IMG/VR virus record: IMGVR_UViG_3300000235_000016
Coordinates: 1-28,156 of that record
Origin: a virus
Reading direction: 5' to 3' (one strand)
Length of the DNA stretch: 28,156 nucleotides
The translations under genes were made by a program, and so were the position numbers. The first letter of the stretch is position 1. Every line of letters starts with the position of its first letter. The notes under the pieces were generated by a model. The model was not told the DNA's origin. It did no database searches and saw nothing but the letters and a program-made list of their open reading frames with translations. This document shows positions 12,163 through 28,156 of the stretch, piece after piece.

Positions 12163-12173
12163 ATTATTTTGCG

Positions 12174-12434
12174 TTAGGCGCTAATTGAATCCTTTTCTAT
12201 GCGTCTGATTTCCCGCACCAAATACCATTGCGCTTTTCGGAGGTCTACAAGAGTGGGACCCTTCTTTCCGGCACGCGAAATGTATTTCAGCACATTGCCG
12301 AGGCAAAAGCTCAATTGCCAAGCTTCAATAACATTGATTGCTTCATACACATTATCAGCACCGCCGTAATGCTGTGGATGATCGATTTTTTCTTCGGGAA
12401 TAATCACAACGTTTCTCATTTTTTTTTTTTCCAT
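12174..12434 (-). CDS. DUF3310 family protein
   Basis: An 86-residue protein with the DUF3310 signature common in phages: DHPQHYGGADNVYEAINVIE, then SFCLGNVLKYISRAGKKGPT and the final DLRKAQWYLVREI helix. The family is widespread next to phage nucleotide-metabolism and replication genes; a role in nucleotide metabolism has been suggested but is not settled. I use the ATG at 12434, which lies 13 nt after the end of the upstream DUF5131 gene; a start at 12473 would overlap that gene by 26 nt. The second to sixth codons contain a run of twelve A, a likely slippage site. It ends the replication operon, followed by the stem-loop at 12131-12162. Confidence 0.8.
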   Translation of the reverse strand: MEKKKMRNVVIIPEEKIDHPQHYGGADNVYEAINVIEAWQLSFCLGNVLKYISRAGKKGPTLVDLRKAQWYLVREIRRIEKDSISA

Positions 12435-12447
12435 GATTTCAGATATA

Positions 12448-13254
12448 TTATTTTGGGAAATTACGATACTCAAACCCTCTCACGTGCTCATAGCTGACTT
12501 GTTCAGAGGCATTGTAACAATATTCGCCGGTTATTTTTGGCGGTTTCAACATAATTGCATTGCGCTCTTTTACAGTCAGATTCTCTATCGGAACATACTT
12601 GCCCCAACTCTTGAAGAATACCTGTATATTGAACATCTCGCACTCTTCTATTAGTGATTCAGCCCACTCCATGCGCATCGGTGTGGCTTTCGTGCCTGAC
12701 ATGCCGCCGATGATTACCCATTTAATTTTTTCTGTCCATTCAGTTTTCAGATTCACATGCCCCGTAAGCGGCTCGAAAGAAACGAAATGCAAAGCCGCCG
12801 GACGTTCCAATAATGCCGGAATGCGCATATCTGCCGATTCCTGATTCTCGCACGAGGTGCCAAAACATAAATTAGGCGGGTAATAATCAAACTCTAATAT
12901 TTGCGGGAATTTCGTAAGCATCTGAAAAGAATGAGACTCATTGAAATGAATGCGGTCAAGAACTGCTCGGCGTATAGTTCTGTTCCAAAATGCCGGGTCA
13001 GACATTGAATTAACAAACACACGCGAAGGTTTTTTCGGAAATTCCGCAAACAGTCTATGGTCTAACATTGTAGGTGTAAATCTCGCTACATCTTCAAATA
13101 TGTTTTTTCTTTTGTTAAGCGTAGCCTCACGCTCTGCAATAGGTTTCGCAAATCGCTTCGCTATGCCGCGTGCATAGCAGTAGTTGCATCCGCCCAAGCA
13201 ACCCCACACGGGATTCCACGTGTAATCTGTCCATTGGATTTTTGATTTTTGCAT
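12448..13254 (-). CDS. DUF5131 (phage Gp37/Gp68-like), radical-SAM-type protein
   Basis: A 268-residue protein of the phage Gp37/Gp68 (DUF5131) family. The N-terminus KIQWTDYTWNPVWGCLGGCN places Cys19-x3-Cys23-x2-Cys26, exactly the radical-SAM 4Fe-4S motif, followed by YARGIAKRF. Family landmarks downstream are FVNSMSDPAFW (about 80-90), LCFGTSCENQESADMRIPAL, FVSFEPLTGHV and the Gly-rich WVIIGGMSG (about 178-186), then VFFKSWGKYVP. The substrate of this family is not established; such proteins are frequent in phages near DNA modification or replication genes. Here it lies between a collapsed methyltransferase and the DUF3310 gene. The start ATG is 27 nt beyond the methyltransferase remnant. 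Confidence 0.82.
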   Translation of the reverse strand: MQKSKIQWTDYTWNPVWGCLGGCNYCYARGIAKRFAKPIAEREATLNKRKNIFEDVARFTPTMLDHRLFAEFPKKPSRVFVNSMSDPAFWNRTIRRAVLDRIHFNESHSFQMLTKFPQILEFDYYPPNLCFGTSCENQESADMRIPALLERPAALHFVSFEPLTGHVNLKTEWTEKIKWVIIGGMSGTKATPMRMEWAESLIEECEMFNIQVFFKSWGKYVPIENLTVKERNAIMLKPPKITGEYCYNASEQVSYEHVRGFEYRNFPK

Positions 13255-13280
13255 GATTGAAAAATGTATTGTTTGAAAAT

Positions 13281-13432
13281 AATTGATTGAAAAATTCTAT
13301 CTGCTACTTCTGGAACTATGACGTTCCCGAGTGCTGCTCTGCGGCAAGTTCAAAGCCTCCGATGCCGCTGAACAGGCTTCCGTGTGTAATTTGTTCAATA
13401 TCAGAATGGTGAATTATCATCTTTTGGTTCAT
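13281..13432 (-). pseudogene. C5 cytosine methyltransferase remnant (both ends only)
   Basis: From the ATG at 13432 (or 13420), overlapping the primase end, the frame reads to the C5-methyltransferase motif I: THGSLFSGIGGFELAAE, the SAM-binding start of Dcm-type enzymes. It then runs into QHSGTS and a TAG at 13316. In another frame immediately after, the DNA encodes ALGNVIVPEVADRIFQSI, which matches the C-terminal motif X of the same family (typically GNAVVPQ). Motifs II-IX, including the catalytic Pro-Cys, are all missing, so a single internal deletion of several hundred codons, out of frame, joined the two ends at about 13335-13350. It cannot be an active enzyme. It implies the ancestor methylated its DNA. 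Confidence 0.75.
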
Positions 13433-16400
13433 AGTTAGGAAGTGGTTGCGGAGTTTCGTGATATGGTTGCAGTGTATCGTTACGGCTGCTGAGGTCAATG
13501 CCGAGCATATCGTAGTCAAATGCCCAACCTGTGGTTACGTTGTCGAAGCGTGTGCTTTTCGAGCGACCTAAGAAGGTCTTGCTGTGTTCGATGTAATATT
13601 CAAGCGAGCGTTTCGGCATAATTTCTTGTCGCGTTTTTGCGCACAGTTCGGCATAATAATTATAGATTGTGCTCATTTTCAGATACAATATTTGCTTACT
13701 TCCGTTTTTGTAGCCTGAGAAATCAAATCTCTTTTCTTCCGTTGATGCACCATTCTTCACAAGCAAGGTGATGAAGATTTCGTCAATGATTCGGTAATTA
13801 TCGCCGTGTCGAATTATGCCGCGTTCGGCAAGAGATACAAGGCTTTCCCAGAATGCACTGACTTCGTTGGAGCTGTTCATAATCGTATATTGCTCACGAA
13901 TGCGATTCAGTGAGAGTTGAAACACATCTTCGTATTTGAACGCGACACTCACGCGCGATTCCAATATCTTGAATGTCGCTATAAGAATCGCATAATTCTT
14001 AATCAATCGCCCGTCCACCGACGAAGATACTTGCTCCGACAAATCCTTCTCAACATCGTAGAACGTTTGTTCGTATTCTTTTTCAATAAGCGAACGGAAT
14101 CCGAGCAGCTCTTCAACTAAGTGTGTTAATCCTTTTTTCTCAATCGCTTTCAGTTCATTGAACTTGTTTTTTTGCGTTTGCGAATATTCCGGATTATAGT
14201 AAGGGAGGAAAACAAGACGCGAAAACAAGGCGACATCCGCCGTCGGCATTTCCTGACCGCACAGTAATGCCATGGAATTAACTTGTGTCGTTTCGGTCTT
14301 AATTCCTGCCTTGATTGAACCGCGCACACGTCCGTCGCGGTTATAGATAGATTTCAGATATTCCAACTTATTGATGTCTAACGAATTCTTATACTCGTCA
14401 ATCAATGCAAATGCGTTTTTGAAATTCTCCATGTGCACTGCGGCGGCATATTCCGTGCCTTTGTGAATGTTGAGCAGGTTCTGCTCATCTCCGAAAAAGT
14501 TAAGCAGACTCTTGGCATGTTCTGTTTTTCCGGTGCCTTTCACACCGAAAAAATTTACCAAAGGCAAGTTCCCAGTAATCGAAAAAATATAATCCGAAAA
14601 CACAGACGTAAGCAGTGCGCAGGTAGATAGTTTGCTATTTTCACCATAGACAGAAATGAACTTTTCAGACCATTGAAAAAACGAAATGTCTTGCGGTTTG
14701 CGAACGAATTTGCGCTCAGCCTTGAATACTGTTCTATCATGTTTGTACAACTCCGAAAATGCAGGGATGTAATAATTCGTATTTAGGACGGTTACAGTTC
14801 CGTAACTGTCCACAGGCACAAACTGACGTTCATACACAATTCCGTTCGCCCATGCCCAAAAACCTTGCTTTTGCCAGCCTAAGTTTTCGATATTCTTGCA
14901 AAATTTCGTATCGGCATACAGGCGTTGTTTCAATCGAGTGAATTTCGTTTTGTCTCCCCAAAAAAGGAAATTGCCTTTACTTTCGCAGAATATTTGCCAT
15001 TTGTCAATCTTGACCATGCTTTCAATATCAACTTCGATAATCTGTTTTTCGTTCTTGAAATTTATGATTTCAAATAGTTTGCGCGTTTCGTTGATGCTTT
15101 CTATATGGAAGAGCGGGCGAATAATATAGTTAGAATAAGGAACAGAACCGCCGCTTTTTTCCTCGAAAAACAACTGATTATCTTTCTCAAACAAGCCGTA
15201 TTTGTCAAGCGATTCGAGCTGTTCTTTCGTCAATCCGTGCGGATTATTCGCATATATGGTAACTTCCTTATTATCGGAACGTTGGTTCTCTTTGAGATAA
15301 TCTGAAACGATCTTTTTGAAATCGCCTTGATTGATGACATATCCATTACTTTTGAATCTTGAAACAACATGATTAATTTTTAACATCCGCTCAGTCTCAG
15401 ATAAGAATGATATTATTTCTGCGGATTTCTCAATTGCTGATTTCTTAGACTTATCATTACTACCTTTGATTGAACCTATTTGCAGTTCAAAATAGAAGTC
15501 AATGAATGAAGTAGTATCTTCTTTATCGTCGATCTCATTGAAATATGTAATCTCAAGGTTAAACCCAACTGAAATAAGTTGCTTGAAAAGTTTCAAAAGC
15601 TTCGTTTCTCCGTTTGTATCAATCAAATCAAATTGCCCAAGCGATTCTGAAACGCTAATATTTTTCGTAAGCTTATGCAGCTCATTGAAATATGAATAAG
15701 CTGTATTTTCTGTGAATCCGACAGTGTTAAGTTCGTTATTGAAATGCTTTTCAATAACGAAATCATTAGAAAAAACCAGATTTGCAACATTCTTTTCCTT
15801 GATAGCTTCCTTCGCTTCTTCCCAGGCAAAAAAGCCTATAACGCATTCTTTTTCTTCGGAAAGTTTTGCAGTTTTTTTGTCAAGGAGCTTTTCTTCGATG
15901 CCGAATTTTTGAGAAAGTTTTTTTCTCAAAATAATACGTTCGGCTTCATTGTCAATGAATGAAATTGAGGTTGCAATGGTTTCGGCAACTTTCACAATAT
16001 CTTTTGCGGAAACGCTGCCGTTCAACAGCGTTTTCGCCTGAAATTCAAAGAAATCAACTTTGTTTTCAAGAATATAATTCAACACTTCATCCTTTGTGCG
16101 CGACTTACCGAAGCTGTCCGGGTCTTCGCCTTCGGGCAGGATGCAAACATTAACCACGAAATCTTCGGAAAGAAACTTGTCAATGCTTTTCATTGCCGCA
16201 TTTTTGCCGGCATTATCGGCATCGAACAGCAGAATCACGTGGTATGTGAAGCGTTGAATCAGTTTCACTTGCATAGTGCTCAGAGCGGTTCCGGATGTGG
16301 CAACGGTGTTCGCAATGCCGAGCTGATGGAAACGCATCACGTCGGTATTGCCTTCAACTAAGAAGCACTCATCGTAGGCAACAATCGCTTTTTTTGCCTG

Positions 16401-17138
16401 AAATAAGCCGAAAAGTATTTTGCTTTTGTCGAAAAGCTCTGTATTTGAGCTGTTTATGTATTTCGCTTCGCTTTTGTCGGCGGTAAGAATACGGCTTGTA
16501 AAACCGATAACTTTTCCGGATAAATCGAAATACGGAAACATAACGCGATTTCGGAAACGGTCATATAGTGAGCCGTCTGTTTTCTTGGTTCCGGAAAGTC
16601 CGCTTTCCGTCAATAATTCAGCTTTGTATGCGCGTTTAAGTGCGGCAACGCTCAGGAATTGCCAATCATCTTTCGCATAGCCGATATTGAAATCGCGCAA
16701 AATTTCAGCATTGAAACCGCGCTCAATGCTCATATATTGGTGTGCTGCGGATTTATCGAACGAATGTAGAAAGACTTTCTGTGCAAATTCAGTAACAATT
16801 GCAAGGCTTTCCTTGTGCGTTCGGCGAGCGGCATCGTCGGAGGATTCTGATTCTGCAACGGGAACGTTATATTTTTTCGCAATCCATTTCACTGCTTCCG
16901 GATAATTCATTGCTTCGTGTTTCATTACGAAACTGAACGCATTGCCGCTTTCGCCGCAACTGAAACATTTGTAGATGCCTTTTGCCGGAGATACCGAGAA
17001 TGACGGGGTTTTTTCGTTGTGAAACGGACAAAGTCCGAGATGTGCTGTGCCTTTTCGCCGCAAATTAATGAAATCGCCGACGACATCTTCAATCTTGACG
17101 ATTGATTTCAAGTGGTTTATGGTGGATACCTGTATCAT
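13401..17138 (-). CDS. Primase-helicase (CHC2 zinc finger, TOPRIM, P-loop ATPase)
   Basis: A 1245-residue replication protein. Residues 37-61 form a CHC2 zinc finger (Cys37, His40, Cys58, Cys61 in CPFHNEKTPSFSV and YKCFSCGESGNAF). The DnaG-like catalytic core includes YDRFRNRVMFPYFD (192-205) and a TOPRIM fold with VEGNTD (Glu262), FDADNAG (Asp306, Asp308) and EGEDPDSF (336-343). After a long linker, a C-terminal ATPase has Walker A GVKGTGKT (865-872) and Walker B-like ALIDEYK (Asp914-Glu915). It would synthesise primers and, with the ATPase half, probably unwind DNA; the ATPase is not of the DnaB type and looks closer to DUF927/SF3-like modules. The ATG overlaps the upstream stop (ATGA), and the 3' end overlaps the methyltransferase remnant. 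Confidence 0.88.
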   Translation of the reverse strand: MIQVSTINHLKSIVKIEDVVGDFINLRRKGTAHLGLCPFHNEKTPSFSVSPAKGIYKCFSCGESGNAFSFVMKHEAMNYPEAVKWIAKKYNVPVAESESSDDAARRTHKESLAIVTEFAQKVFLHSFDKSAAHQYMSIERGFNAEILRDFNIGYAKDDWQFLSVAALKRAYKAELLTESGLSGTKKTDGSLYDRFRNRVMFPYFDLSGKVIGFTSRILTADKSEAKYINSSNTELFDKSKILFGLFQAKKAIVAYDECFLVEGNTDVMRFHQLGIANTVATSGTALSTMQVKLIQRFTYHVILLFDADNAGKNAAMKSIDKFLSEDFVVNVCILPEGEDPDSFGKSRTKDEVLNYILENKVDFFEFQAKTLLNGSVSAKDIVKVAETIATSISFIDNEAERIILRKKLSQKFGIEEKLLDKKTAKLSEEKECVIGFFAWEEAKEAIKEKNVANLVFSNDFVIEKHFNNELNTVGFTENTAYSYFNELHKLTKNISVSESLGQFDLIDTNGETKLLKLFKQLISVGFNLEITYFNEIDDKEDTTSFIDFYFELQIGSIKGSNDKSKKSAIEKSAEIISFLSETERMLKINHVVSRFKSNGYVINQGDFKKIVSDYLKENQRSDNKEVTIYANNPHGLTKEQLESLDKYGLFEKDNQLFFEEKSGGSVPYSNYIIRPLFHIESINETRKLFEIINFKNEKQIIEVDIESMVKIDKWQIFCESKGNFLFWGDKTKFTRLKQRLYADTKFCKNIENLGWQKQGFWAWANGIVYERQFVPVDSYGTVTVLNTNYYIPAFSELYKHDRTVFKAERKFVRKPQDISFFQWSEKFISVYGENSKLSTCALLTSVFSDYIFSITGNLPLVNFFGVKGTGKTEHAKSLLNFFGDEQNLLNIHKGTEYAAAVHMENFKNAFALIDEYKNSLDINKLEYLKSIYNRDGRVRGSIKAGIKTETTQVNSMALLCGQEMPTADVALFSRLVFLPYYNPEYSQTQKNKFNELKAIEKKGLTHLVEELLGFRSLIEKEYEQTFYDVEKDLSEQVSSSVDGRLIKNYAILIATFKILESRVSVAFKYEDVFQLSLNRIREQYTIMNSSNEVSAFWESLVSLAERGIIRHGDNYRIIDEIFITLLVKNGASTEEKRFDFSGYKNGSKQILYLKMSTIYNYYAELCAKTRQEIMPKRSLEYYIEHSKTFLGRSKSTRFDNVTTGWAFDYDMLGIDLSSRNDTLQPYHETPQPLPNYEPKDDNSPF

Positions 17139-17458
17139 TCGATTTCAATTAATTTGTATAAGCCAAAATAAATATCATGTGTCTGAATTTCAGAGCCGTA
17201 TTTCTTAACAAGTAACTTTTTGAATTCGGAAATATCAACTCCGAAACAGAGTTTGATAATGAATTCTACCAATTGCAACATGCTGAAATGGATTTTGTGA
17301 TAATCTTCAATTCTGATAACAGCCTTTTTTTCGTCGATTTGAGCTTCAATTTCTTTTGGCTCAAATATATTTGCCCATTCTGCATCAATCTCGGAATCGG
17401 CTTTCACAAATACGAAATAGTTATGCGTGTTTTGAGACTTTATTTTGAGAGGTTTCAT
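17135..17458 (-). CDS. Hypothetical early protein upstream of primase
   Basis: A 107-residue protein counted from the ATG at 17458 (MKPLKIKSQNTHNYFVFVKA); an alternative ATG at 17491 would overlap the preceding gene by 71 nt instead of 38. It is acidic with an Ile/Phe-rich C-terminal helix region (MLQLVEFIIKLCFGVDISEF) and ends YFGLYKLIEIE. I do not recognise the family. Its stop overlaps the primase start (ATGA), so it is translationally coupled to the primase and could be a partner such as a loader or single-strand-DNA-binding accessory; this is inference from position. Confidence 0.6.
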   Translation of the reverse strand: MKPLKIKSQNTHNYFVFVKADSEIDAEWANIFEPKEIEAQIDEKKAVIRIEDYHKIHFSMLQLVEFIIKLCFGVDISEFKKLLVKKYGSEIQTHDIYFGLYKLIEIE

Positions 17459-17933
17459 TTTTTTGCGTGTTTGGTTGTGAGAATAAGGCATAGTAAGTCG
17501 TAATAATTTCAGAAACTTCTGGCAAAAAGCTATGTTTCAAGCCGTATAGCACAGTCGAATGGTCTATTCCTATAAGATTTCCAATTTCAGAAAGCGAAGC
17601 TTTGGTATCGCGATTTGCTATATAACAAAAAGCGTATCTTGAAGAAACAAGATAGCGTTTACGAAGTTTCGATTTCATTGAAAAATCAGGCACATTTGCA
17701 ATGTTGGCAACTCGGCTCAATATGACAAGTAAAGAGGCTTGTTCATTTTTAGACCAAATAGAATTGACCGATTCAGCAAGAACTTCGCTGATATTGATTG
17801 CAAGAGTCAAGTCAGGAATAAGCTCTCCCTGTATAATACGCAATAGAAATTTGCGTGTAACTTTGAGAGCATTTGCAGCTTCTTCAAGCGTAACTCCTTT
17901 GAATAACATAATATTATGGATGTTATTCTTCAT
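17421..17933 (-). CDS. XRE-like HTH plus DnaA domain IV-like protein
   Basis: A 170-residue protein from the ATG at 17933; a TTG at 17963 would add ten residues within the upstream gene and seems less likely. Residues 5-60 look like a Cro/CI-type helix-turn-helix (GVTLEEAANALKVTRKFLLR, then a Leu/Ile-rich segment). Residues 93-135 match the DNA-binding domain IV of DnaA: YLVSSRYAFCYIANRDTKAS, then LSEIGNLIGIDHSTVLYGLK with the DHSTV signature (124-128). No AAA+ domain is present. Phage proteins with a free DnaA C-terminal domain are known. Here the joined HTH and its place two genes ahead of the primase suggest a replication initiator or regulator that recognises DnaA-box-like sites. The C-terminal tail (145-170) is polar and low-complexity. 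Confidence 0.72.
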   Translation of the reverse strand: MKNNIHNIMLFKGVTLEEAANALKVTRKFLLRIIQGELIPDLTLAINISEVLAESVNSIWSKNEQASLLVILSRVANIANVPDFSMKSKLRKRYLVSSRYAFCYIANRDTKASLSEIGNLIGIDHSTVLYGLKHSFLPEVSEIITTYYALFSQPNTQKNETSQNKVSKHA

Positions 17934-18099
17934 ATTCTTTTGGATTAATACCTTGTTTTTCAAGGTATAGATTATAGGTAATCTCCCACTTTTTCAAGTC
18001 AGCCTGCAACTCAATGCGAGCTAACTCATAGGATGTTTCCAGGTACCTATAAATTGGAATTTCACTGATAATCTGATTGATAAGTTCCTTGATGCTCAT
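17923..18099 (-). CDS. Small helical protein (58 aa)
   Basis: A 58-residue protein read from the ATG at 18099: MSIKELINQIISEIPIYRYL, then a Glu/Leu-rich helix with ELARIELQADLKKWEITYNL, ending in NPKEYEE before TAA. Its ATG overlaps the stop of the upstream gene (ATGA), and its end overlaps the start of the HTH/DnaA-like gene by 11 nt, which is good evidence that it is translated as part of the operon. It is nearly all helical and might be a small dimeric partner; no family is recognised. Confidence 0.65.
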   Translation of the reverse strand: MSIKELINQIISEIPIYRYLETSYELARIELQADLKKWEITYNLYLEKQGINPKEYEE

Positions 18100-18260
18100 A
18101 ATACATATATAAAAAATAGTGCAATACCGCCTCCGCCAAACAGCAAAGCAAAAATTAACTTAGCACGATGCTTGTCGCACAATAGCTTTTGTAATAAGGC
18201 TGACCAAAAGCCTTTTTCGCCGCAAATTTCGCAGCTGTTCCCGTGCTTACTCTTGCTCAT
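18096..18260 (-). CDS. Small Cys-motif membrane protein (54 aa)
   Basis: A 54-residue protein from the ATG at 18260: MSKSKHGNSCEICGEKGFWS, then LLQKLLCDKHRAKLI, then a hydrophobic helix FALLFGGGGIALFFIYVL to the stop. Cys10-x2-Cys13 with Cys28 and His31 looks like a small zinc-binding knuckle, followed by one likely transmembrane segment (about 36-54). It overlaps the upstream gene by 14 nt and the next gene by ATGA, so it is embedded in the early operon. A membrane-anchored small zinc protein is unusual in a replication operon; a host-takeover or anti-defence role is possible but unproven. Confidence 0.65.
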   Translation of the reverse strand: MSKSKHGNSCEICGEKGFWSALLQKLLCDKHRAKLIFALLFGGGGIALFFIYVL

Positions 18261-18609
18261 ACTCGGATATTGCTTTTCTTATTTTCACTTGCAATTCCGA
18301 AGCATCGGATATTACTTTTGTTGTTGATTCTGCTAACTTATACAGTTGCAGCGCAAGCGCATCTTCCATTATTGCGATAATCATTCCTTGTTTTTTTGTC
18401 GGAATTAATTTCGGATTATGAAACCGTCCTTTCCAAGTCTGATAGTTCATTTCGCCCATTTCCCCTAAGAATTGGTTGAGCCATTTGAACATGTCCTTAC
18501 GTCCATCCGGCGGAATGATACCAAAATATTTCCCGGCAATAAGCGGCGGAAGATTTTCAGATGTGTAATCGCTTTTACAAATCCGATTATTTTCATTTTC
18601 TTTGTCCAT
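18247..18609 (-). CDS. Hypothetical first gene of early operon
   Basis: A 120-residue protein beginning MDKENENNRICKSDYTSENL. It has GKYFGIIPPDGRKDMFKWLN (about 27-46) and MNYQTWKGRFHNPKLIPTKK (54-73), then a helical C-terminus ending IRKAISEYEQE. No family is recognised. It is the first gene of the minus-strand early block and lies directly behind a 20-bp palindrome at 18616-18635, so it is probably under control of whatever binds there. It overlaps the small membrane protein gene by 14 nt. Confidence 0.62.
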   Translation of the reverse strand: MDKENENNRICKSDYTSENLPPLIAGKYFGIIPPDGRKDMFKWLNQFLGEMGEMNYQTWKGRFHNPKLIPTKKQGMIIAIMEDALALQLYKLAESTTKVISDASELQVKIRKAISEYEQE

Positions 18610-18615
18610 GCGAAA

Positions 18616-18635
18616 TAATTTAAACGTTTAAATTA
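18616..18635. promoter_or_regulatory. 20-bp perfect palindrome, probable operator
   Basis: TAATTTAAACGTTTAAATTA is a perfect palindrome 6 bp ahead of the first early gene (ATG at 18609). It lies in the spacer between the early genes and the broken repressor-like gene, where a lysogeny operator would be expected. Confidence 0.55.
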
Positions 18636-18657
18636 ATCGCTAAATACGGAATTAAAT

Positions 18658-18720
18658 AAGTAAAAACAAAATTTAAAGTAAATATTTACTTAATTAAGAA
18701 TTATTCTAAATTAAGTAAAA
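18658..18720. promoter_or_regulatory. AAGTAAA operator-like cluster with 16-bp palindrome
   Basis: AAGTAAATATTTACTT (18676-18691) is a perfect 16-bp palindrome. The same half-site AAGTAAA recurs at 18658-18664 and 18714-18720, giving four half-sites in 63 bp. This is the pattern of a dimeric repressor operator. It precedes the broken HTH gene on the plus strand. Confidence 0.5.
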
Positions 18721-18735
18721 TAGAATACCGCTAAT

Positions 18736-19077
18736 ATTGAGAAGGTTGTAAAATTCAAACGCTATACGTCAAAACAAATAAGTGAGGTACTTGAGATTTC
18801 AGCCAGCACATAGCAGAATTATATAAACGAAAGAAGGATGCCGAGCGAAAAGATAGAAATACTCTCTAAGTTACTACCAATGAGCCTTGAAGAATTATTT
18901 CAAGAATACCCGAATGAATATGAAACAACAGAACAAAAAAGCATTGTTAGCGAAGAAATCGCAGAGTATAAGAAGTCTATACAGCAAGAAACTGATATTC
19001 GGAAAGTATTGAAAGAAGTAATCGAAATTAAGAAGATATTGACTGACAATATCATTAAGCCTACTGAAAAACAGTAG
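18736..19077 (+). pseudogene. Broken HTH repressor-like gene (no start, internal amber)
   Basis: The plus-strand frame ending with TAG at 19075-19077 reads upstream through a helix-turn-helix: FKRYTSKQISEVLEISAST, then TAG at 18811-18813, then QNYINERRMPSEKIEILSKL and LPMSLEELFQEYP. The amber falls inside the HTH, just where the recognition helix starts. The frame also has no ATG, GTG or TTG before it; ATT at 18736-18738 stands where a start would be expected. The short remaining ORF from ATG 18838 (79 residues) lacks the HTH and has a charged helical tail. TAG is a normal stop elsewhere in this window, so reassignment is unlikely. It sits next to palindromic sites and a recombinase fragment, consistent with a decayed phage repressor. 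Confidence 0.65.
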
Positions 19078-19146
19078 ATTATAGCCGCAATATCGGCATG
19101 AAATCGGCACAAAATGATGCAAATATTACAAAAGTTGCATTTATAA

Positions 19147-19443
19147 TATGCTGAAAATCAATGTGCGTTTTCGGACAAAATGAAACCAGGTATGAATGAA
19201 AAACAGACAAAATACGCAGGTCGCAGATGGTTACAGCTCCGAAAAGATTTGAAGCTGAAACCTGAATATCACATGTATAGCCTGCGCGATACAGGTATAA
19301 TCCAGATGCTTCGTGACGGCATAAGCCATGATGAAGTGGCAAAGCAAGCAGGGCATAGCTCTATTGAAATAACAAGTATCTATGCCCTGCACGCTAAAAA
19401 GACTGCGAACTCGCAAATCATGAGAAAAGCCGGTAAGTTCTAA
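19147..19443 (+). pseudogene. Tyrosine recombinase C-terminal fragment
   Basis: The frame after TAA at 19144 gives about 98 residues, the end of a phage-type tyrosine integrase: AFSDKMKPGMNEKQTKYAGR, then YSLRDTGIIQMLRDGI with the second catalytic Arg, DEVAKQAGHSSIEITSIYAL with the GHS box and the nucleophile Tyr in SIYALHA. The N-terminal and core-binding domains and the first catalytic Arg are missing. The ATG at 19180 gives 87 residues but cannot make an active recombinase. It converges with the minus-strand gene at 19440-19928, the two ends overlapping by 4 nt. Together with the broken HTH gene it is the only plus-strand coding in the window and looks like the remains of an integration module. 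Confidence 0.75.
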
Positions 19444-19928
19444 GCTTTTTCTTCTAAAATAATTTCTGGATATGCCTCCATAATTGCGCGATGTTCCGGC
19501 AATAGTAATTCAAGATAAGTTACTACACCTGTTTCTGTCGCTTTTCGGAACTCAGCCGGAATATCCGACTGCATTGCCATAAGCAATTGACCGAGCGCAT
19601 TGCCGGAGTTTGTTGCCGATTTCACAATTCCGTCCGGAATATACACGCGGATCGGACGCAACGGGAACAGCCAGTTCTCATTTTCCGATACTTTGAACGT
19701 CGGAAATACTTCCAATTTCAATGCTTCGTAACATAGTCGTATCAAGGCTGATTCAATGTTATAAGCTGCATTGATGCTGAAATTATTATAAGTATGAGAA
19801 TTCGCCTTACAAGGCGATTTCACGCTGTTGAATTCTTGCGTAACGAAAACAACGCGATTGAGAGTGTTATTTACGTCGGTGATTTCAATAACTGTACCTG
19901 TTGTGGTATTGATAAGTTTCATATTCAA
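19440..19928 (-). CDS. Hypothetical protein downstream of tail spike
   Basis: A 162-residue protein, last gene of the tail block. It starts MNMKLINTTTGTVIEITDVN, has VFVTQEFNSVKSPCKANSHT, and a basic/aromatic run WLFPLRPIRVYIPDG near the middle, then a helical, Ala/Glu-rich C-terminus (LLPEHRAIMEAYPEIILEEK). I do not recognise it. Being directly after a tail spike, it may be a spike chaperone, a base component or a second host-binding protein. It is 10 bp from the tail-spike stop and its stop overlaps the end of the recombinase fragment coming from the other strand. Confidence 0.6.
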   Translation of the reverse strand: MNMKLINTTTGTVIEITDVNNTLNRVVFVTQEFNSVKSPCKANSHTYNNFSINAAYNIESALIRLCYEALKLEVFPTFKVSENENWLFPLRPIRVYIPDGIVKSATNSGNALGQLLMAMQSDIPAEFRKATETGVVTYLELLLPEHRAIMEAYPEIILEEKA

Positions 19929-19938
19929 TTTATTAAAA

Positions 19939-21249
19939 TTATTTCAAATAATTTCCGCCGGCATCTGTTGTCGGAACCCACTGGCGTGCGGTACCTCCGC
20001 TGTTATCTGTGGCAGTGGTAACATAAGTAACGTTCTCGAAAATTGCATAGTCTGCGCCGAGTGCATTGACTATGGCCTTCGCCGAACAATCTCGGAACGA
20101 ATTATAATCTCCGTTATTAGTAATCGTATTTGTTACAACTACTGATGAAAAAATAGAATTATTAGTATCAACTGTAAGAGCAGACGTTGCAGAGTTATTG
20201 ACAAGAGCCTGCGCGATTCTGAGATAAGCTGATACATTTGAAAATGTGAAATTTGAATTTGTTATTTTCAATAATGAGATATTAAAAAAAGCATTAGATG
20301 CACTTTTGATTGTAATACCTGTTGAATTAACTATATTAAGATTTGTTACAGTTAGTAAATTAACATTCTGAAAAGTTAAGTTCGAGCTATTGATTATGCT
20401 ACAATTTGTGATACTTCCTTGTATAGACATTTGAATATTAGAACAGTTCAATATTGATTCAATTGTAATCCCAGCCCCCAAAAAAGCCAAGTTTTTACTG
20501 TTCGATAATCTCAAACCGGTAGCATATATAGGGAATTTATTGCTCGAAATCGCATTAAGATTATTAATACTATTATAAGTTGCCGTAAGAAAGAAGAAAA
20601 AATTCGACCATACAGCTAAGGTATTACTGCCGGAAACTATAACATTATCAATTATACAAGAATTCCCTGAACAGTAAAAAATATTATTATTATATGTTCC
20701 AACAGATAACACAATATAGCAATCTCTTAATAAGAAATAAGATGAGAAATAGTTTCTGACATTCATATTTGAGAATGTCATAGTGGAGTTAACTATATAA
20801 GCATTAGCGGCGGATATTCCAAATTGTTCGACTACTGCTGAAAAGGTTAAACTGACATTCTCAAAAATAAATGATGTTAGTTTGAATAGTGGCGTTGAAA
20901 AAGCCCCAATATAAGAATTTATAATTTTCAAATTTAAAATAGATACAGTTCCAGAACTTATTAATTGATAAGCTGTTGATAGAGAAAATCCGTTACCGTC
21001 GATGAAGATGTCACTGCCTGAGGTTCCTGCACTTGTTTCTGTTACATTGGAAATTAGCTTAATTTTTTTCTTACCTGCTGCAAAAGCAAGTCTTAATGTA
21101 GTGTAATCGCCTCCTGTGCCAACCGTCACAATGTCATTCGCAATCCTTGCCGCCTTTGCCAAATCTATAAGCCCTTCCGACCCAGACTTCGTTCCATATA
21201 CCGAATGTCCGTTATTTTCAATTGGTGTATAATCTATTACCCTTCCCAT
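19939..21249 (-). CDS. Beta-helix tail spike / receptor-binding protein
   Basis: A 436-residue protein with the composition of a right-handed beta-helix (pectin-lyase fold): after an N-terminal anchor, TVGTGGDYTTLRLAFAAGKK (about 42-61) is the usual entry, then many Asn/Ser/Thr/Ile-rich short coils such as GTVSILNLKIINSYIGAF, NSSNLTFQNVNLLTVTNLNI and NSTGITIKSASNAFF. The repeat-like coils are shorter and more A/T-rich in DNA than the flanks. The C-terminal ~60 residues change composition, ending RQWVPTTDAGGNYLK, perhaps a trimerisation cap. Tail spikes bind and may cut surface polysaccharide; catalytic residues cannot be named here. It starts 1 nt after the upstream stop, in the tail block order tape measure, baseplate, spike. 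No variable repeat or reverse transcriptase for a diversity-generating system is seen. Confidence 0.75.
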   Translation of the reverse strand: MGRVIDYTPIENNGHSVYGTKSGSEGLIDLAKAARIANDIVTVGTGGDYTTLRLAFAAGKKKIKLISNVTETSAGTSGSDIFIDGNGFSLSTAYQLISSGTVSILNLKIINSYIGAFSTPLFKLTSFIFENVSLTFSAVVEQFGISAANAYIVNSTMTFSNMNVRNYFSSYFLLRDCYIVLSVGTYNNNIFYCSGNSCIIDNVIVSGSNTLAVWSNFFFFLTATYNSINNLNAISSNKFPIYATGLRLSNSKNLAFLGAGITIESILNCSNIQMSIQGSITNCSIINSSNLTFQNVNLLTVTNLNIVNSTGITIKSASNAFFNISLLKITNSNFTFSNVSAYLRIAQALVNNSATSALTVDTNNSIFSSVVVTNTITNNGDYNSFRDCSAKAIVNALGADYAIFENVTYVTTATDNSGGTARQWVPTTDAGGNYLK

Positions 21250-21250
21250 A

Positions 21251-22804
21251 TTAGTTGATCATTAATGTTGAATAACTGTTGTCTTGTAAGCAATTATAGC
21301 TGTTGTCTAATAATTTCCCGTTATCAAAAATCAATTCGCCCGAGCATGACCCCGTCCAACTTACGCGTGAAACATGGCAATATGCTGACAAATCAAGCGT
21401 TATCGTTGTATTTTCTCCCACATCGAGCAGAATCGGATATACTTTCACAATTGCAGGGTTCGTGTCAGTGGACAGAACTACTTCGCCTACACCGTCAATC
21501 AACTCGAATGTGTCCGTTCTTACAATAGTAAGCGAGAACAGTTCAGTTATTGTATTATATTCGGCATCTTGGCATCGGAATTTCGCCTGCGGAATACCCA
21601 AAAATGGCGTTTCAAGGAAATCAGAATAATGACCTTCGTTATACGCAGTCTTATATTTGAACTCGAAAGAAAAAAGATAGTTCTTGTCTTGATATACTTT
21701 CAACGAATCTGACTGCGGAATAATTTCTACAATGTGATTCTTATACGCCTCATACACTTCTTCGCTGAGAAGTAATTCAGTCATATAATCTTGCGCGCGC
21801 TGTGCGTTCGTATATTTCGAGTTCATCCAACCCGAATTTGTTGTTTTTTCGGAATCGTAATTCACGAAAAATACGCGGTTCTGTCCTTCGTCCGATATGC
21901 CGCTTTCACGGTTGAACTTGTTTTCAACCTCCGAAAGGCCGTGCAGCAACACACAATCGTAACCGCCTAAGCTGTTGTGAAATATGAATTGCCGCGCGAA
22001 GTGCATGTAACTGCGATCAATCGTATAAGTTTTCGTTTCCGAAACTTGCTCGAATGTTACGCCCGAACCGCCCAACACATAGAAATCGAAACTGACAATC
22101 AGCTTATCAATCTCATATTGTTCGAGTTGGTGTGCGAAAAATGAAGCATTTAATGTATAGACTGTCCACTCCGTTGCCGTAATTGCTGCGGATGTGATTG
22201 TCTGCGTGGTTGCATCGTCGAATGACAGCACGAATTGATATTTCAATTCTGCCAACAGCGTATTGAGATAATATAACATCTCAATTTGTGTCGGCATAAG
22301 CTTTTTCGGCATCTGCCAACTAAGGAATCGGTTTTCTGTACCTATTAATTTCGATAGAAACGTATAGCCCTTAGTGTCATAATATTGTAAAAGTGCACGG
22401 CTTAGTCCGCCGTTGATTGCGAAAAAGTTAGTTGAAATTATTGCATCCCAAGGCTGATTATAACTGTCGTAAGTCTCAAAAAACTTGAATGTATATTCAG
22501 AAGTAAGACCGGCATCAATAATGTCGGTTACAAAAAGGTCTGATAATATAAATTGTTTGCGAGTATCATTCCGAAGATATTCTGAAATATCCATTGTAAT
22601 GACTTGATTTTCTTGCACAATGAAAGAATCCTCTGCAAAAGGGAGATAATATTCGTTAATATAAGGGTTGAAAATTTGGACGTGAAGCCTTCTTATTATG
22701 GCATCGGCATAATATATAGATTTCGGACCAATAGAAATCACAATCTTAGCAGGATTATCGCTGAGGATTACTTTTTCCGGATATGATTGAACTACGAAAC
22801 TCAT
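21251..22804 (-). CDS. Tail/baseplate structural protein (517 aa)
   Basis: A 517-residue protein rich in Tyr, Phe, Asn and Thr with alternating beta pattern, starting MSFVVQSYPEKVILSDNPAK. Features include YYADAIIRRLHVQIFNPYIN, LSFDDATTQTITSAAIT and a beta-rich C-terminus LLDVGENTTITLDLSAYCHV that includes Cys residues. It is typical in size and place of Bacteroidota phage tail proteins coded between the tape measure and the tail spike, but I cannot assign a specific baseplate role. The next gene starts 1 nt after its stop. The 44-bp gap upstream to 22849 shows no features. Confidence 0.65.
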   Translation of the reverse strand: MSFVVQSYPEKVILSDNPAKIVISIGPKSIYYADAIIRRLHVQIFNPYINEYYLPFAEDSFIVQENQVITMDISEYLRNDTRKQFILSDLFVTDIIDAGLTSEYTFKFFETYDSYNQPWDAIISTNFFAINGGLSRALLQYYDTKGYTFLSKLIGTENRFLSWQMPKKLMPTQIEMLYYLNTLLAELKYQFVLSFDDATTQTITSAAITATEWTVYTLNASFFAHQLEQYEIDKLIVSFDFYVLGGSGVTFEQVSETKTYTIDRSYMHFARQFIFHNSLGGYDCVLLHGLSEVENKFNRESGISDEGQNRVFFVNYDSEKTTNSGWMNSKYTNAQRAQDYMTELLLSEEVYEAYKNHIVEIIPQSDSLKVYQDKNYLFSFEFKYKTAYNEGHYSDFLETPFLGIPQAKFRCQDAEYNTITELFSLTIVRTDTFELIDGVGEVVLSTDTNPAIVKVYPILLDVGENTTITLDLSAYCHVSRVSWTGSCSGELIFDNGKLLDNSYNCLQDNSYSTLMIN

Positions 22805-22848
22805 ATTGATGCAAAATTAAGGAAGTAAGACTTCTAAAAAAGGACAAA

Positions 22849-24672
22849 TCAGAAACGAATTGCTGTTGCCTTAACTACTGAAACTCCATTATTACTCAAG
22901 TTATATTCCAAGTCCGTAATGAAATAGGTATTTTCCCCTATTTTATATTTTTTTGTGAAATCGAAATTAAAAATATCTGCCGCATTCATATACAGGTAGA
23001 TTGTATATTCAGCATCAACATCAAGATACCAAGTTAGAAACTTTTTCCAGCGTTCGTAATAAGACCATTGTGCCGAGTAGCTTATCGTATCTTTTTCATC
23101 TTCCGGAGCATCGCCTGACGGAGGAACTCCAAAGAAATACCCGGAAGCTGCGTATGGAATATGTCTGAAAGGCAATGCTGTCATATCATTCGAAAAGTGA
23201 AACATATACCGTAATGAGAAATCGTTATATGGATATTCCGTGCCATTCCGGTTAAGAGCGCCTTGAAAAAAGTTTCCTTTCTGTTTAACTATCGGTAATG
23301 CTCTTAGATTCGATTGGTTCTGACCGTATAACCAGTGCGATATTGAGCAAGAAAATAGTGGAATTTTCACGTCAAGATTGCCGGAAAACATTCCGTTAGA
23401 AATTGCAACATTACGAAATTCTTGGAAATTACCTGAACCTTCCGGAAGGACTTGCCATTCTTCGCCTTGACTAAGAATGGAATATATACCGGGCGGATTT
23501 TCAAAAAAAACAAGTGTTTTTGTATGATCCATCCGATAAGTGAATCTTGCGAAACCTATGGTATCGTACACTGTATAATTCCCATATACAGGATAATATT
23601 CTAACGATGGTAATTCAATATGACTATGTTGGGACTGCGAAAAATCAGGATAATTAGATGCAAATGAGTCAGCACTATCACGTTGCACAGAAATTTCCCA
23701 TCCGTCTGCTTTGCCTGTAATTTTCTTCGTTGTAGTCTTGACATGTTTCGACGAATAATCGATATAACTTTCTGTCATAATCATATCGTATCTCGAAATT
23801 AGTATAGCATGACCATGCCGCACATTGAGAAATAAATTCCAAAAATTTTGTATTGACAACAAAAACTCCGTAACGGGTGTACGCGGAACATGATTCTTCG
23901 CATTATAGGTTCCGAAATCTATCTCATGCCTTGCATATACAATTGTATTAACGGTGAATAGAAGTTGTTTTGGAAACCACGTTAGGAATTGATTATCAGA
24001 AACCTTAGATTCATATAAGGTAATGAAATTCGATAACACCTTATATAAGACATCATCGACAAAAGGGAATGGCGTAACTGCAACAGGATAGTTATATTTA
24101 AAAAAGAATTCATAAGCTTGTGATTCAATCGAATTCACAGTATTCTGTTTCTCAAACGCATCTTTCCAAACACCGCCTTCAACTGTCTTATAATTTTCAT
24201 ATATAGTGTCCTTAAAAAAATCTTCGTTCTGAATCGTAGCCAAAACATATCTCTGCGGATACCGCGTTCCGTTTTCCGCGAACGTTGGCAAAATAAATTC
24301 GCAGTCGTCGCCATAGTCTAAGTCTGTGAGCAGCTTGTCTTTTATTTGGTGATAGAAACCGCCGTTATTCACGAAAATAGTGAACTCAATCGACTTCTGA
24401 CTAATTTCTTCCGCACGCATAATGCCGCGTGCAATCGGAATACCGTGAAAAATTACTTCTGCATCGCCCTCAATAACTTCGTTTTCGTGTTTTTCAGGTC
24501 GAAATGCAAACCCAAAAATACGCTGATTTCGCACCGACATCGGAGCCGAAACAGGTAAAGAATAGCCACCTTCTAATTTGTCGAACGTGAATACATTCCC
24601 GTGCTCAACGATAATAATTTGAAAATCGTCCGGCAGTTCAATGGGCTGTGAGTTGAAGCGAATTTCGAGCAT
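22849..24672 (-). CDS. Tail/baseplate structural protein (607 aa)
   Basis: A 607-residue protein starting MLEIRFNSQPIELPDDFQII, then FDKLEGGYSLPVSAPMSVRN and QRIFGFAFRPEKHENEV. This opening (small beta domain, a Pro-rich SLPV/SAP turn, then an FGF/R run) is similar to one I remember from Bacteroidota phage tail proteins following the tape measure. The rest is aromatic-rich and beta-structured, with GIPIARGIMRAEEISQKSIE early and YKIGENTYFITDLEYNLSNN near the end. It would be a distal tail or baseplate hub component. Its ATG overlaps the stop of the upstream gene (TAATG), indicating coupled translation. Confidence 0.68.
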   Translation of the reverse strand: MLEIRFNSQPIELPDDFQIIIVEHGNVFTFDKLEGGYSLPVSAPMSVRNQRIFGFAFRPEKHENEVIEGDAEVIFHGIPIARGIMRAEEISQKSIEFTIFVNNGGFYHQIKDKLLTDLDYGDDCEFILPTFAENGTRYPQRYVLATIQNEDFFKDTIYENYKTVEGGVWKDAFEKQNTVNSIESQAYEFFFKYNYPVAVTPFPFVDDVLYKVLSNFITLYESKVSDNQFLTWFPKQLLFTVNTIVYARHEIDFGTYNAKNHVPRTPVTEFLLSIQNFWNLFLNVRHGHAILISRYDMIMTESYIDYSSKHVKTTTKKITGKADGWEISVQRDSADSFASNYPDFSQSQHSHIELPSLEYYPVYGNYTVYDTIGFARFTYRMDHTKTLVFFENPPGIYSILSQGEEWQVLPEGSGNFQEFRNVAISNGMFSGNLDVKIPLFSCSISHWLYGQNQSNLRALPIVKQKGNFFQGALNRNGTEYPYNDFSLRYMFHFSNDMTALPFRHIPYAASGYFFGVPPSGDAPEDEKDTISYSAQWSYYERWKKFLTWYLDVDAEYTIYLYMNAADIFNFDFTKKYKIGENTYFITDLEYNLSNNGVSVVKATAIRF

Positions 24673-25112
24673 TACTTATGTATATCGTTGAATTTTTTCG
24701 AGTAGAATTCCGTTATCACTGTTAGTTTTTCGATGCTAGATGCAAGTAAGACGTTCGATTTCGAGAACATATCGAAACTATCTGAAAACTTGGAAATTAC
24801 CTTAGTATTTTCAACAATTACAGATAAGTTCTGCTTCGTATTATCCTCCATGTGGTCAATGAATCGCGTAGAAATAACATTCATTTCCTTGATAGCTTCG
24901 TCGCGTTCCTTATATGCCCTGTCCATTGCATTCTTATAATCAATATCGCGCTTTTCTTGTAGTTGTTGATCTTTTTTCGCTTGGTAACGAATAATGAAAA
25001 TCGAAAATGCAAGCATAATTCCGAAGGAACCATAATCAAGAAGTTTCATTTCGGGTGAAGCAACATCCACAGGAACTTGCAACAGAATTGAAAAGAGAAG
25101 ATACATCAACAT
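24672..25112 (-). CDS. Small membrane/coiled-coil protein, holin-like candidate
   Basis: A 146-residue protein. It opens with a hydrophobic segment MLMYLLFSILLQVPVDV, and a second, GSFGIMLAFSIFIIRYQ (about 28-44), is a likely membrane helix. Residues 45-80 form a highly charged helix (AKKDQQLQEKRDIDYKNAMD) and 80-146 a Ser/Val/Lys-rich coiled coil. BhlA/holin-like and tail-associated membrane proteins have this layout, and lysis genes are often coded near the tape measure. No endolysin is recognised in the window, so the holin call is tentative. It overlaps the next gene. Confidence 0.6.
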   Translation of the reverse strand: MLMYLLFSILLQVPVDVASPEMKLLDYGSFGIMLAFSIFIIRYQAKKDQQLQEKRDIDYKNAMDRAYKERDEAIKEMNVISTRFIDHMEDNTKQNLSVIVENTKVISKFSDSFDMFSKSNVLLASSIEKLTVITEFYSKKFNDIHK

Positions 25113-25166
25113 AACTCAATAACTTTAATACAAATTTCTAAAAAAAATCAGAGTGCAAAAAGGACA

Positions 25167-28156
25167 TTACAACACCGAAGTATCGTTTCTTACCTTGTTA
25201 ATTTTCGCCTCGTAATCCTCCAAATCCGTATAGACAATTTGCGCTTTCAGTTTTCCCTTGAAATTTTGTAAGTCCGAACGCATGTTTCCGAGTTCGGAGC
25301 GCATCGCACGCAGTTCGGCAATCATTTCGGAGTTATCCGCATGCATCGTTGCAGGAACATTCGTTCCTGCAGTTTGGTATTTCCCGCGTGCGCGCTGAGG
25401 CACACGCAAACTACGCATCCTTGATATAGCCTGCGCATGATCCATTACCGTCATGCCGTATCTGTCCGTTTTCACATTATATAAGGTGCGATTGTCCACC
25501 ACGAACTCCGGCTCTTCCGCTACCAATGTAGGCTTGCGCACAATGCCGGTGCTGAGTGTCGGAACCAACGGCGCGGCGTAATGTTTGCCGTCATCCTCAC
25601 CTACTACGTCATACTTTCCGTCGGCGAGCTGCATTACAGCATTGCGCTGATTGGTAGCGGCTAAGGTCGATGCGCCGGCTTGCGCAGTGAGCGCAATATA
25701 CGCAAGACCACCAGCAATAGGATTAGTCAATGCAAGTGCGGCGGCTTCCATGTAGGCTTTGGCGGCTGTAGCAGCAATTTGCGCGAGTGTGATTGCAAAT
25801 TCAATATCGGCATATTTCTTTTGGATTTGCTTTTTCTTCTCCTCATCATCGCCCACACGTTGCAGTTCACGCTCTTTGGCGGCGTTCGTCAATGATTCGC
25901 TTGCGCTGATAACTGACGACATTTGCGACAAGTTCTCTCTGCGGCGTTGCATTTCTTCATCGTGCGCGGCTTGGGCTTGCGCATCCAATTGCTTCAGATG
26001 TTCCGTTCGCAGAATGAACAATGCCTGTTCGTATTCCGCTTCTGTCAGTAATTCTTGATCCTTATATGCTTTCAGTTGGTCAAGCTGCTGTTGATATTTG
26101 TCTGCATCGCTAATAAGTCCGTATTGCTCCCGAATGGATTGAATCATCTCTGTATGTTCTTTTTCCTTAGCTTCGAGATACGCCTTTTTCTCGGCATCGC
26201 GCACGGTTTCAAGGTCGGAAATAATGCGCAGATATTCCTCACGTCTGGCGACATCTTCGGATGCGAACTTCGTTGCGGCATCAATTTGCTTTTGATATTT
26301 TCCGTCAATTGCCGCAAGTTCAATTTCGTTCAATCGTTCCTGTTCGGTTACGATGCCGCGTTGCGCTTCGGTTACGAATGCCTCAATATCTTGGTAGCGT
26401 TTCAGTAATTCGTCTTGATATGCCTTTTCATTCTCGATACGTTTGGCGGTATACGCGGCATCCAATTGCGAGAGTGCATAATTCTTTTGCTCTTCCGATA
26501 CTTTCGCCATCAATATTTTCTCCTGCTCTTTCGTGAACCAGATTTCCAATTCAGCCGCAGCGCGTTTGCGCTCGTCCTCAATTGCATTGATGTTTAATTG
26601 TTGAATGAGCTCGAAAAGCATACGAGAATCATCGGCTTTGGCTTGGGCGTTTGCGGTTCCGCCTCCTGTCCCATTCCCTGAATTTGCCGCTTCTTCGCTT
26701 CCTGTTATAAGCGTAGAATAAAATTCTCCTATACTTTTTTTCCCATTTTCAAACTCAAGTGCGGCACGTTTTGTATCCGAAACAAGATTCCGAAGATTAT
26801 CATCAATAATACTATATCCTGTCGCAGACTGAACTGATGCGCTTATCTGATCGGCTGTTAAGCCGGCATTTGCCGCAGCTTGAAACCAAGCGAAATTAAA
26901 CGTATCAAGTCTATCAATAACAGATGGTTTAATCGTTTCATTGAAAATTTTAAAAATTTCACGTTGTGACCTTAAGTATTCCTTGTTTAGATTTATAAAT
27001 TCCTCTTTTTTACTTTCAATCGCAATATTTTGTAATAATGCCTCATTTACTGCTTTTTGAGCTTTTTCAATATCTTCTAATGAAGTCTGCTGTGTAAGAA
27101 GATTAGGCAAATATGTTTTATATTTTTCGTTAACAGCCTTCAATACATTGTCGTAAGATTGCGTGCCTTTTTCTGTTGTTTTCAGCATCTCAAAAAGAGC
27201 ATCACTTTCGCCGACAACCTCAGCCATTTTTTCAGAATATATATCACCTGCTTTTGCAAGATTAAGCAGAGGTTTTTCAGCTTCTTTAGCCTTTTCACGG
27301 AATAATATAAAAGCCGTAATTGCAGCAGCAACTCCGGCTATTATCAAACCCCAAGGCGTTTTTTTCATTGAAATACTAAGAAGGTCGTTGGCTTTTTTCA
27401 AGACTAATGTTGCTTTTTCTTGCAAAAAAGTTGCAATTGTCGCACCTTTCGTAACGACAGTATAAGCTACAATTCCGGCAACAGCAATTTTCAAATACTT
27501 CGCAAACGTGTCCCAATTTTTTATAATCGTAACCAACACTTTCAACAAATACGAAAACGCATTCGTACTGAATGTGAGGGCAGGGGCGAGCTGTTCGCCC
27601 AGCACAATCGCATTTTCTTGGGCGCGGTTTTTTGCCTGTTCGAGTTTGGCGGCGTTATTATCTGTGTTAATTGCTGCTTGCTCAATTGCCGTGTTCGTGC
27701 CGGTAACGGCTTTTGTCAGTTCGTCGTATTTTAGGATGTTGCCAAGCAAAATAGAACCTACCGTAATATTTTCAGCACCGAACAATTTCATTTTCAGCGC
27801 ATCTTTCTGCGCTTCCGTGCCTTGTTTTTCAAGTTGTGCGTTCGCTTCTAACAAAGCATCGCGCATGTTGAACGTGCCTGATGCGTAACCCACGCCGGTT
27901 TGTTTTAATTTCAATAATGCACCACGCAATTTCGTTCCGGCTTCTTCCGAATAGATTTGTTTGTCACCCAAAACCTCCAATGCCGCAACCGTTTCTTCGA
28001 GAGTCATGTTGCTTTCCGATGCCACCGTTCCCACGTTCTTGAACGATTCTCCAAGGCTGTCCACCTCCGCACTGCCTGCCTTCGAGCCTGCCGCAAACAC
28101 ATTGATAATACGGCGACTTTCATCTGCGCCAAGTCCGAACTGATTCATGGCGGCGG
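25167..28156 (-). CDS. Tape measure protein, N-terminus outside window
   Basis: The frame is open to the right edge (Ala-Ala before the Met at 28148), so the true start is beyond the window. The visible ~995 residues begin with the phage tape-measure core: FGLGADESRRIINVFAAGSK, SESNMTLEETVAALEVLGD, and TKLRGALLKLKQTGV (TP901-1 core-type). A hydrophobic stretch at about 219-240 (LKIAVAGIVAYTVVTKGATI) and another at 265-283 (PWGLIIAGVAAAITAFILF) are the membrane-active parts typical of these proteins. Residues ~500-800 are a long coiled coil of Gln, Glu, Lys and Ala. The C-terminus ends in a charged helical part after an Ala-rich run TLAQIAATAAKAYMEAAALA. It sets tail length and helps DNA enter the cell. 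Confidence 0.88.
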   Translation of the reverse strand, partial: AAMNQFGLGADESRRIINVFAAGSKAGSAEVDSLGESFKNVGTVASESNMTLEETVAALEVLGDKQIYSEEAGTKLRGALLKLKQTGVGYASGTFNMRDALLEANAQLEKQGTEAQKDALKMKLFGAENITVGSILLGNILKYDELTKAVTGTNTAIEQAAINTDNNAAKLEQAKNRAQENAIVLGEQLAPALTFSTNAFSYLLKVLVTIIKNWDTFAKYLKIAVAGIVAYTVVTKGATIATFLQEKATLVLKKANDLLSISMKKTPWGLIIAGVAAAITAFILFREKAKEAEKPLLNLAKAGDIYSEKMAEVVGESDALFEMLKTTEKGTQSYDNVLKAVNEKYKTYLPNLLTQQTSLEDIEKAQKAVNEALLQNIAIESKKEEFINLNKEYLRSQREIFKIFNETIKPSVIDRLDTFNFAWFQAAANAGLTADQISASVQSATGYSIIDDNLRNLVSDTKRAALEFENGKKSIGEFYSTLITGSEEAANSGNGTGGGTANAQAKADDSRMLFELIQQLNINAIEDERKRAAAELEIWFTKEQEKILMAKVSEEQKNYALSQLDAAYTAKRIENEKAYQDELLKRYQDIEAFVTEAQRGIVTEQERLNEIELAAIDGKYQKQIDAATKFASEDVARREEYLRIISDLETVRDAEKKAYLEAKEKEHTEMIQSIREQYGLISDADKYQQQLDQLKAYKDQELLTEAEYEQALFILRTEHLKQLDAQAQAAHDEEMQRRRENLSQMSSVISASESLTNAAKERELQRVGDDEEKKKQIQKKYADIEFAITLAQIAATAAKAYMEAAALALTNPIAGGLAYIALTAQAGASTLAATNQRNAVMQLADGKYDVVGEDDGKHYAAPLVPTLSTGIVRKPTLVAEEPEFVVDNRTLYNVKTDRYGMTVMDHAQAISRMRSLRVPQRARGKYQTAGTNVPATMHADNSEMIAELRAMRSELGNMRSDLQNFKGKLKAQIVYTDLEDYEAKINKVRNDTSVL

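Follow-up and report, generated by a model that had tools for sequence, protein, structure and literature searches.

How does a phage come to carry, on the strand opposite to its other accepted genes, the remains of a repressor and an integrase? The question is raised by the virus record IMGVR_UViG_3300000235_000016, which belongs to a virus of Bacteroidota-type bacteria. We analyzed its 28,156 bases, called here the window, and both ends are cut inside genes. The accepted genes of the window lie on the minus strand, with the exception of the stretch 18721-19443 (+). A sequence-only reading had offered two origins for this stretch, a once temperate phage that lost integration and repression or a defective prophage. 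Our results argue for the first. The stretch is very probably a decayed lysogeny module in an otherwise sound tailed phage. This phage would be ancestrally temperate, and it would have lost the integrase first and then the repressor.

The comparison of genomes involves two distinct metagenome sequences. The first is the window together with DYSM01000001.1, a contig of 40,595 bases that matches the window at 100% along its whole length. The contig is assigned to a MAG with the label Draconibacterium orientale SulCav_PC08_3_8_40_26, and to judge by this bin the host may be Draconibacterium-like. Both probably come from the same sample, and the contig would extend the phage without adding an independent sequence. 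The exception is a repeat array at window 2640-3000, in the region of the terminase 3' end, which is 303 bases longer in the contig (at the 2882/2883 junction); the array must be collapsed or expanded in one of the assemblies. The second sequence is the relative IMGVR_UViG_3300000236_000003 (G001, 32,241 bases). Its identity to the window is mostly about 97% (95-98% over 12180-28156 and 92% over 453-2538), and it gives no coverage of window 2966-12174. DYSM01000001.1 aligns to the window or to G001 except for its outermost few hundred bases, and its ends are repeats. Between these phages, a gene for a pentapeptide-like repeat protein (recognized by eye) has only ~82% DNA identity. It lies at 503-1333 of DYSM01000001.1 (276 aa) and at 27712-28578 of G001 (288 aa).

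The integrase is represented by a stub at 19147-19443 (+). It consists of the C-terminal 98 codons of a tyrosine recombinase, with an ATG ORF at 19180-19443 (87 aa). Positions 19147-19440 match PF00589 over the cut-off (E 7e-8), only through profile positions 107-170 of 172. The stub also matches the PHROG_1 integrase. The full integrase of Porphyromonas gingivalis phage024a (P0004, 386 aa) aligns only by its residues 289-386, with 39.8% identity in the window and 37.8% in G001. With the integrase of the related locus L092, the identity is 45.7%. A C-terminal remnant had been claimed for this position, and an open stub is indeed there, although it is about a quarter of the protein and not a third. 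The BLAST homology reaches 19147, upstream of the ATG at 19180, as expected of a truncated gene. In a frame-blind profile search, the integrase match stretched to 19087 through two stops (TGA and TAA). A few more decayed integrase codons may lie upstream of 19147.

The stub retains the YSLRD, GHSS and Tyr part, and the conserved His and Tyr are present. The region of the first catalytic Arg (RPKE in P0004), which belongs to the complete catalytic set of a tyrosine integrase, is absent from the stub. Likewise, the N-terminal SAM-like/core-binding domain is missing, and PF13102 is present in the two intact relatives scanned. Residues 1-288 of P0004 gave no match in the window or G001 (tblastn, E 1), and on this ground we rejected the idea of a split gene whose N-terminal portion would lie elsewhere. 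Searches with PF00589 and with an integrase alignment found the stub alone on the window, G001 and C322. On none of them did these searches match the full-length integrase expected of a temperate phage genome. An intact integrase elsewhere in the genome was also looked for on the near-complete 40.6-kb contig, and none was matched. The other integrase matches in the MAG lie on other contigs. A serine recombinase as a substitute was rejected, since the phage contigs have no PF00239 (resolvase) match.

Between the repressor relic and the stub there is a junction of 69 bases (19078-19146, +). Intact relatives have here a spacer of ~230-680 bases plus roughly 290 integrase codons. The stub and the junction are common to G001, with zero gaps over 1,880 aligned bases. 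The truncation is shared by both genomes, and therefore it predates their split.

The repressor presents a different picture. A pseudogene of the CI/Cro type covers 18721-19077 (+), as judged by its frame, its stops, its PHROG matches and its alignment to intact ORFs of 114-125 aa. The frame 18724-19074 (+) reads as a small CI/Cro-like repressor with a charged C-terminal part, and a TAG at 18811-18813 (+) interrupts it within the HTH. With an X placed at the stop, 18736-19074 matches PHROG transcription regulators (phrog_8 with E 7.7e-7, phrog_3 with 2e-4), and these matches show the HTH homology expected of such a repressor. All matches of Pfam HTH models to the relic are below their cut-offs, and its tblastn against phages returned nothing at E 0.1. 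The start of the intact 117-aa repressor of L092 aligns to the codon at 18721 with no relative gap (16% identity, which is low). This codon, 18721-18723, is a second TAG. The continuous frame with a start codon that defines a CI/Cro-type repressor is consequently lost, at 18721 and at 18811. An HTH gene without start and with an amber inside the HTH had been described from the letters of the window, and both defects stand. The gene had been placed from 18736, and it begins instead near 18721. From the first downstream ATG, a residual frame of 79 aa is open in both genomes (18838-19077, +); it corresponds to the C-terminal part of the repressor.

At 18811, DYSM01000001.1 has the same TAG and G001 a sense codon. 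In G001, the start position 18721 is open and the frame could start there. Nevertheless, this genome has its own TAG at 18820-18822, a different codon from that of the window. The repressor frame is thus broken in both genomes, at different codons. A shared truncation with private stops suggests that the integrase was lost first and the repressor later. With no start, a stop in the HTH and no integrase core, the phage is expected to lack functional forms of both proteins.

The region upstream of the relic (18610-18735) has 126 bases and 18% G+C. Its best inverted repeat is an operator-like element of 35 bases at 18685-18719, with arms of 17 nt and one mismatch; it is perfect in G001. None of 500 dinucleotide shuffles matched it. 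A single base separates the repeat from the former start position of the repressor, a placement that would suit an operator through which the repressor also controlled its own gene. A second palindrome lies in the divergent region at 18614-18637 (arms of 12 nt, one mismatch). Of the 500 shuffles, 8 equalled its exact 20-base core (18616-18635, arms of 10), which makes it weaker evidence. A third one, at 18674-18693, has a half-site in common with 18685-18719 and is perfect in G001. The exact half-site of the 35-base repeat occurs nowhere else on the contig, where fewer than one was expected by chance. Between the window and G001, 18674-18719 shows two differences in 46 bases and is no better kept than its surroundings. 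The sequence-only reading had placed palindromic operators next to the relics. The repeat at 18685-18719 agrees with this beyond chance, as a prediction from sequence. These palindromes would be former operators, and it is possible that the early operon reuses them.

The genes around the relics complete the layout. The first gene of the early operon (18247-18609, -) is divergent from the repressor relic and has no PHROG or Pfam match. An early gene at 17421-17963 (-) encodes a protein with an HTH_3-like stretch and a DnaA C-terminal domain (Bac_DnaA_C, E 2.9e-12, over the cut-off; HTH_3, E 2.6e-4, just below it). This protein is a candidate present-day user of the putative operators. The synteny anchor is a primase-helicase-like early gene at 13401-17138 (-), which matches a PHROG DNA primase with E 5e-109. 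On the other side, the last gene of the late operon (19440-19928, -), which has no PHROG match, converges on the integrase stub with a 4-base overlap. The rest of the phage looks functional, with clear relatives for the protease, tape measure, terminase and primase. The last two can be aligned with their best phage counterparts across 94-96% of their length.

The relics had also been called the only plus-strand coding. It is so within the window, but G001 has further plus-strand ORFs at 29233-30072. They fall in a stretch of 1.1 kb (29041-30124) without alignment to DYSM01000001.1, with two plus-strand ORFs of 112 and 148 aa. One of the ORFs has a weak HTH_3 match (E 0.003). A different or additional regulator could be missed in this stretch or in the repeat-bound contig ends.

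Intact homologues of both genes, which the proposal of a once temperate phage called for, were found in the same order at three related loci. In MT835875.1, a human gut phage fragment (L012), a 114-aa HTH gene (HTH_3, E 1e-6) precedes a 394-aa integrase (PF00589, E 2.7e-9, and a SAM-like domain) on one strand, with the primase and early ORFs on the other. This order and orientation are those of the window. Unlike in the window, both genes are intact and their spacer has 500 bases instead of 69. Beside this integrase, at L012:14120-15692, there are ORFs that by eye resemble a reverse transcriptase, as in diversity-generating elements. At the locus L033, where the layout is the same, the two proteins have 125 and 385 aa; the pair lies opposite a primase-led early operon and has a spacer of 227 bases. 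Its integrase matches PHROG_1 with E 6.6e-22, and its HTH gene was judged by alignment alone. The third pair, in L092, comes from the same MAG bin as DYSM01000001.1. It has 117 and 377 aa, a spacer of 676 bases and an HTH_3 match of 19.8 bits, below the cut-off. The contig ends there, so the early operon is not visible. This intact pair (L092, L102) occupies 28131-30280 of G028:C535, where it closes a different contig of the bin.

Truncation is not the norm for this integrase family. Of the 42 records in the phage collection with a match to the L092 integrase, 39 cover at least 80% of it. Two of the remaining three cover 49% (both are Leef_1) and one covers 74%. We also searched 26 whole IMG/VR records, out of 67 loci. 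This integrase was found in 9 and no match in 17, on records that may be fragments. No clear integrase stub was seen in these 26 records. One match runs to ~20 bases from a contig end and may be cut there; another is limited to profile positions 118-376, inside a frame of 382 aa. A tblastn of 66 primase loci gave a single full-length match of the P. gingivalis type (L033). The same loci include Ingeline itself (L036) and five others with weaker matches to the integrase of Ingeline. A scan with the integrase alignment covered the best 80 of 233 relatives; these are all long matches and cannot serve to count stubs.

The P. gingivalis phages (phage024a_F0570, BK068105.1) have an integrase of the same family, with 39.8% identity over the stub. 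In phage024a, the integrase and an annotated repressor are on the strand opposite the primase-led early operon. Unlike the present phage, which retains only 98 C-terminal integrase codons and a broken repressor, phage024a has a full-length integrase (386 aa), and on its linear record this gene and the annotated repressor stand at opposite ends. Cellulophaga phage Ingeline_1 (Duneviridae) is similar in its opposite-strand integrase and small gene before a primase-bearing operon. The small gene encodes 89 aa, is annotated as hypothetical and matches only a PHROG of unknown function. Its integrase differs; it is full length (398 aa), belongs to another branch and does not match the window even at E 1.

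Polaribacter phage Leef_1 (Helgolandviridae) has a shortened integrase of 157 aa beside an annotated DNA-binding protein of 72 aa. Both genes lie opposite in strand to their neighbours and occupy the genomic junction that corresponds to that of the window. For the 72-aa protein, Pfam gave nothing and PHROG only weak matches (E 0.016-0.044), and its repressor nature rests on the annotation. At MT732473.1 17391-18144 (L013:1436-2189), the integrase homology runs into the end of the 72-aa ORF. In contrast with the window stub, where homology begins at residue 289, that of Leef_1 begins from about residue 191. A second integrase, of 287 aa, is annotated in Leef_1 as well. The published description of this phage takes the presence of an integrase as a sign of temperate potential (PMC8776804). 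The part of that paper available to us does not mention the integrase truncation.

We compared the substitutions between the window and G001 in the relics and in 14 other genes. The 14 genes come from outside window 2966-12174 (the part without G001 coverage), and overlapping gene ends were counted twice. They have 437 substitutions and 0 stop differences, where about 20 would be expected under neutrality. The repressor frame has 14 substitutions and 2 stop differences, with 0.86 expected if neutral. The contrast between the two is significant (Fisher's exact P 0.0009). It means that the repressor frame differs from constrained genes only, and its 2 stops are no excess over a neutral frame. 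In the integrase stub there are 4 synonymous and 5 nonsynonymous substitutions (binomial P 0.08). In the C-terminal part of the repressor there are 3.5 of each; P is 0.02 if counted as 3 nonsynonymous of 7, and 0.12 if counted as 4. The synonymous lean is slight and the changes are too few to decide, which leaves room for weak selection on the shortened proteins. Other genes with few changes (19440-19928, 22849-24672 and 17135-17491) also have nonsynonymous to synonymous ratios near 1, so these ratios are noisy.

This lean is one reason to consider that the shortened products are still used in trans. The 79-aa repressor part and the 87-aa integrase end could, for example, act against repressors or integrases encoded by related prophages. 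Neither ORF is interrupted in the two genomes or has a stop difference inside it, the stub keeps the conserved His and Tyr, and a related intact pair exists in the same MAG bin. Also, a short integrase ORF persists in the isolated phage Leef_1. However, with only 9 and 7 substitutions this openness is expected by chance. The integrase homology begins upstream of the ATG, and the end point differs in Leef_1 (~191 against 289), which argues against one conserved short protein. We therefore consider a use in trans unlikely. Its fuller version, in which the shortened ends persist as small proteins acting in trans against related resident prophages, with a switch from lysogeny to interference, seems quite unlikely. 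If it were true, Leef_1 would be a second, independently truncated case.

Sequencing or assembly errors could also have produced the stops, with the real repressor intact. The data are indeed two distinct metagenome sequences only, and the TAG at 18811 is absent in G001. Yet both repressor frames have stops, and the absence of stop differences among the 437 substitutions of the 14 genes indicates that the contigs are not rich in random errors. Given this contrast, the TAGs are unlikely to be assembly noise. The contig DYSM01000001.1 (17x coverage in its title) has the same sequence, though probably from the same reads. Moreover, the truncation of the integrase does not depend on single bases. 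An intact repressor hidden by errors is thus very unlikely.

A defective prophage decaying in a host chromosome was the other origin in the sequence-only reading. A point in its favour is that one copy lies in a MAG bin. However, the 40.6-kb contig aligns to phage records, namely the window or G001, nearly to its ends. The 14 genes without stop differences and the nearly full-length alignment of the terminase and primase to phage relatives also speak against decay of the whole genome. This origin is disfavoured, and we regard it as highly improbable. One scan of genome contigs gave two loci, the identical contig and a distant relative, and no flanking host DNA was recognised. Finally, TAG does fall within the repressor frame of both genomes, but its recoding as an amino acid is practically negligible as an explanation and was rejected: TAG serves as a stop in 4 of the 25 listed minus-strand genes and in several G001 ORFs, all 25 genes read open under the standard code (a given, since the list was built that way), the other genome has a different residue at each of the two TAG sites (Trp and Tyr), and the integrase would stay unrestored.

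The decay of a lysogeny module thus accounts best for the locus, and the intact relatives and the lack of a second integrase match sustain the idea of a once temperate phage. In the ancestor, a small CI-like repressor would have bound palindromic operators between divergent repressor and early promoters. An adjoining tyrosine integrase of ~380-390 aa would have inserted the genome into the host. A deletion, older than the split of the two genomes, would then have cut away roughly the N-terminal three quarters of the integrase together with some of the spacer between the two genes. Once integration was gone, the repressor would no longer be under selection, and each lineage could acquire its private stop in the HTH. 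Barring help in trans, the present phage would neither integrate nor repress itself, and its growth would be lytic only.

Lytic phages that keep traces of a lysogeny module are already known, with precedents among the virulent phages of lactococci and of Streptococcus thermophilus. The present locus is a new case of this decay, with a readable order of events. The loss of lysogeny seems to be caught part-way, and the comparison of two genomes suggests the order of its steps, with the repressor broken separately in each lineage. In addition, an "integrase" match is no proof of a temperate lifestyle. The integrase of Leef_1 is truncated at this same place, though a second annotated integrase is present in that phage.
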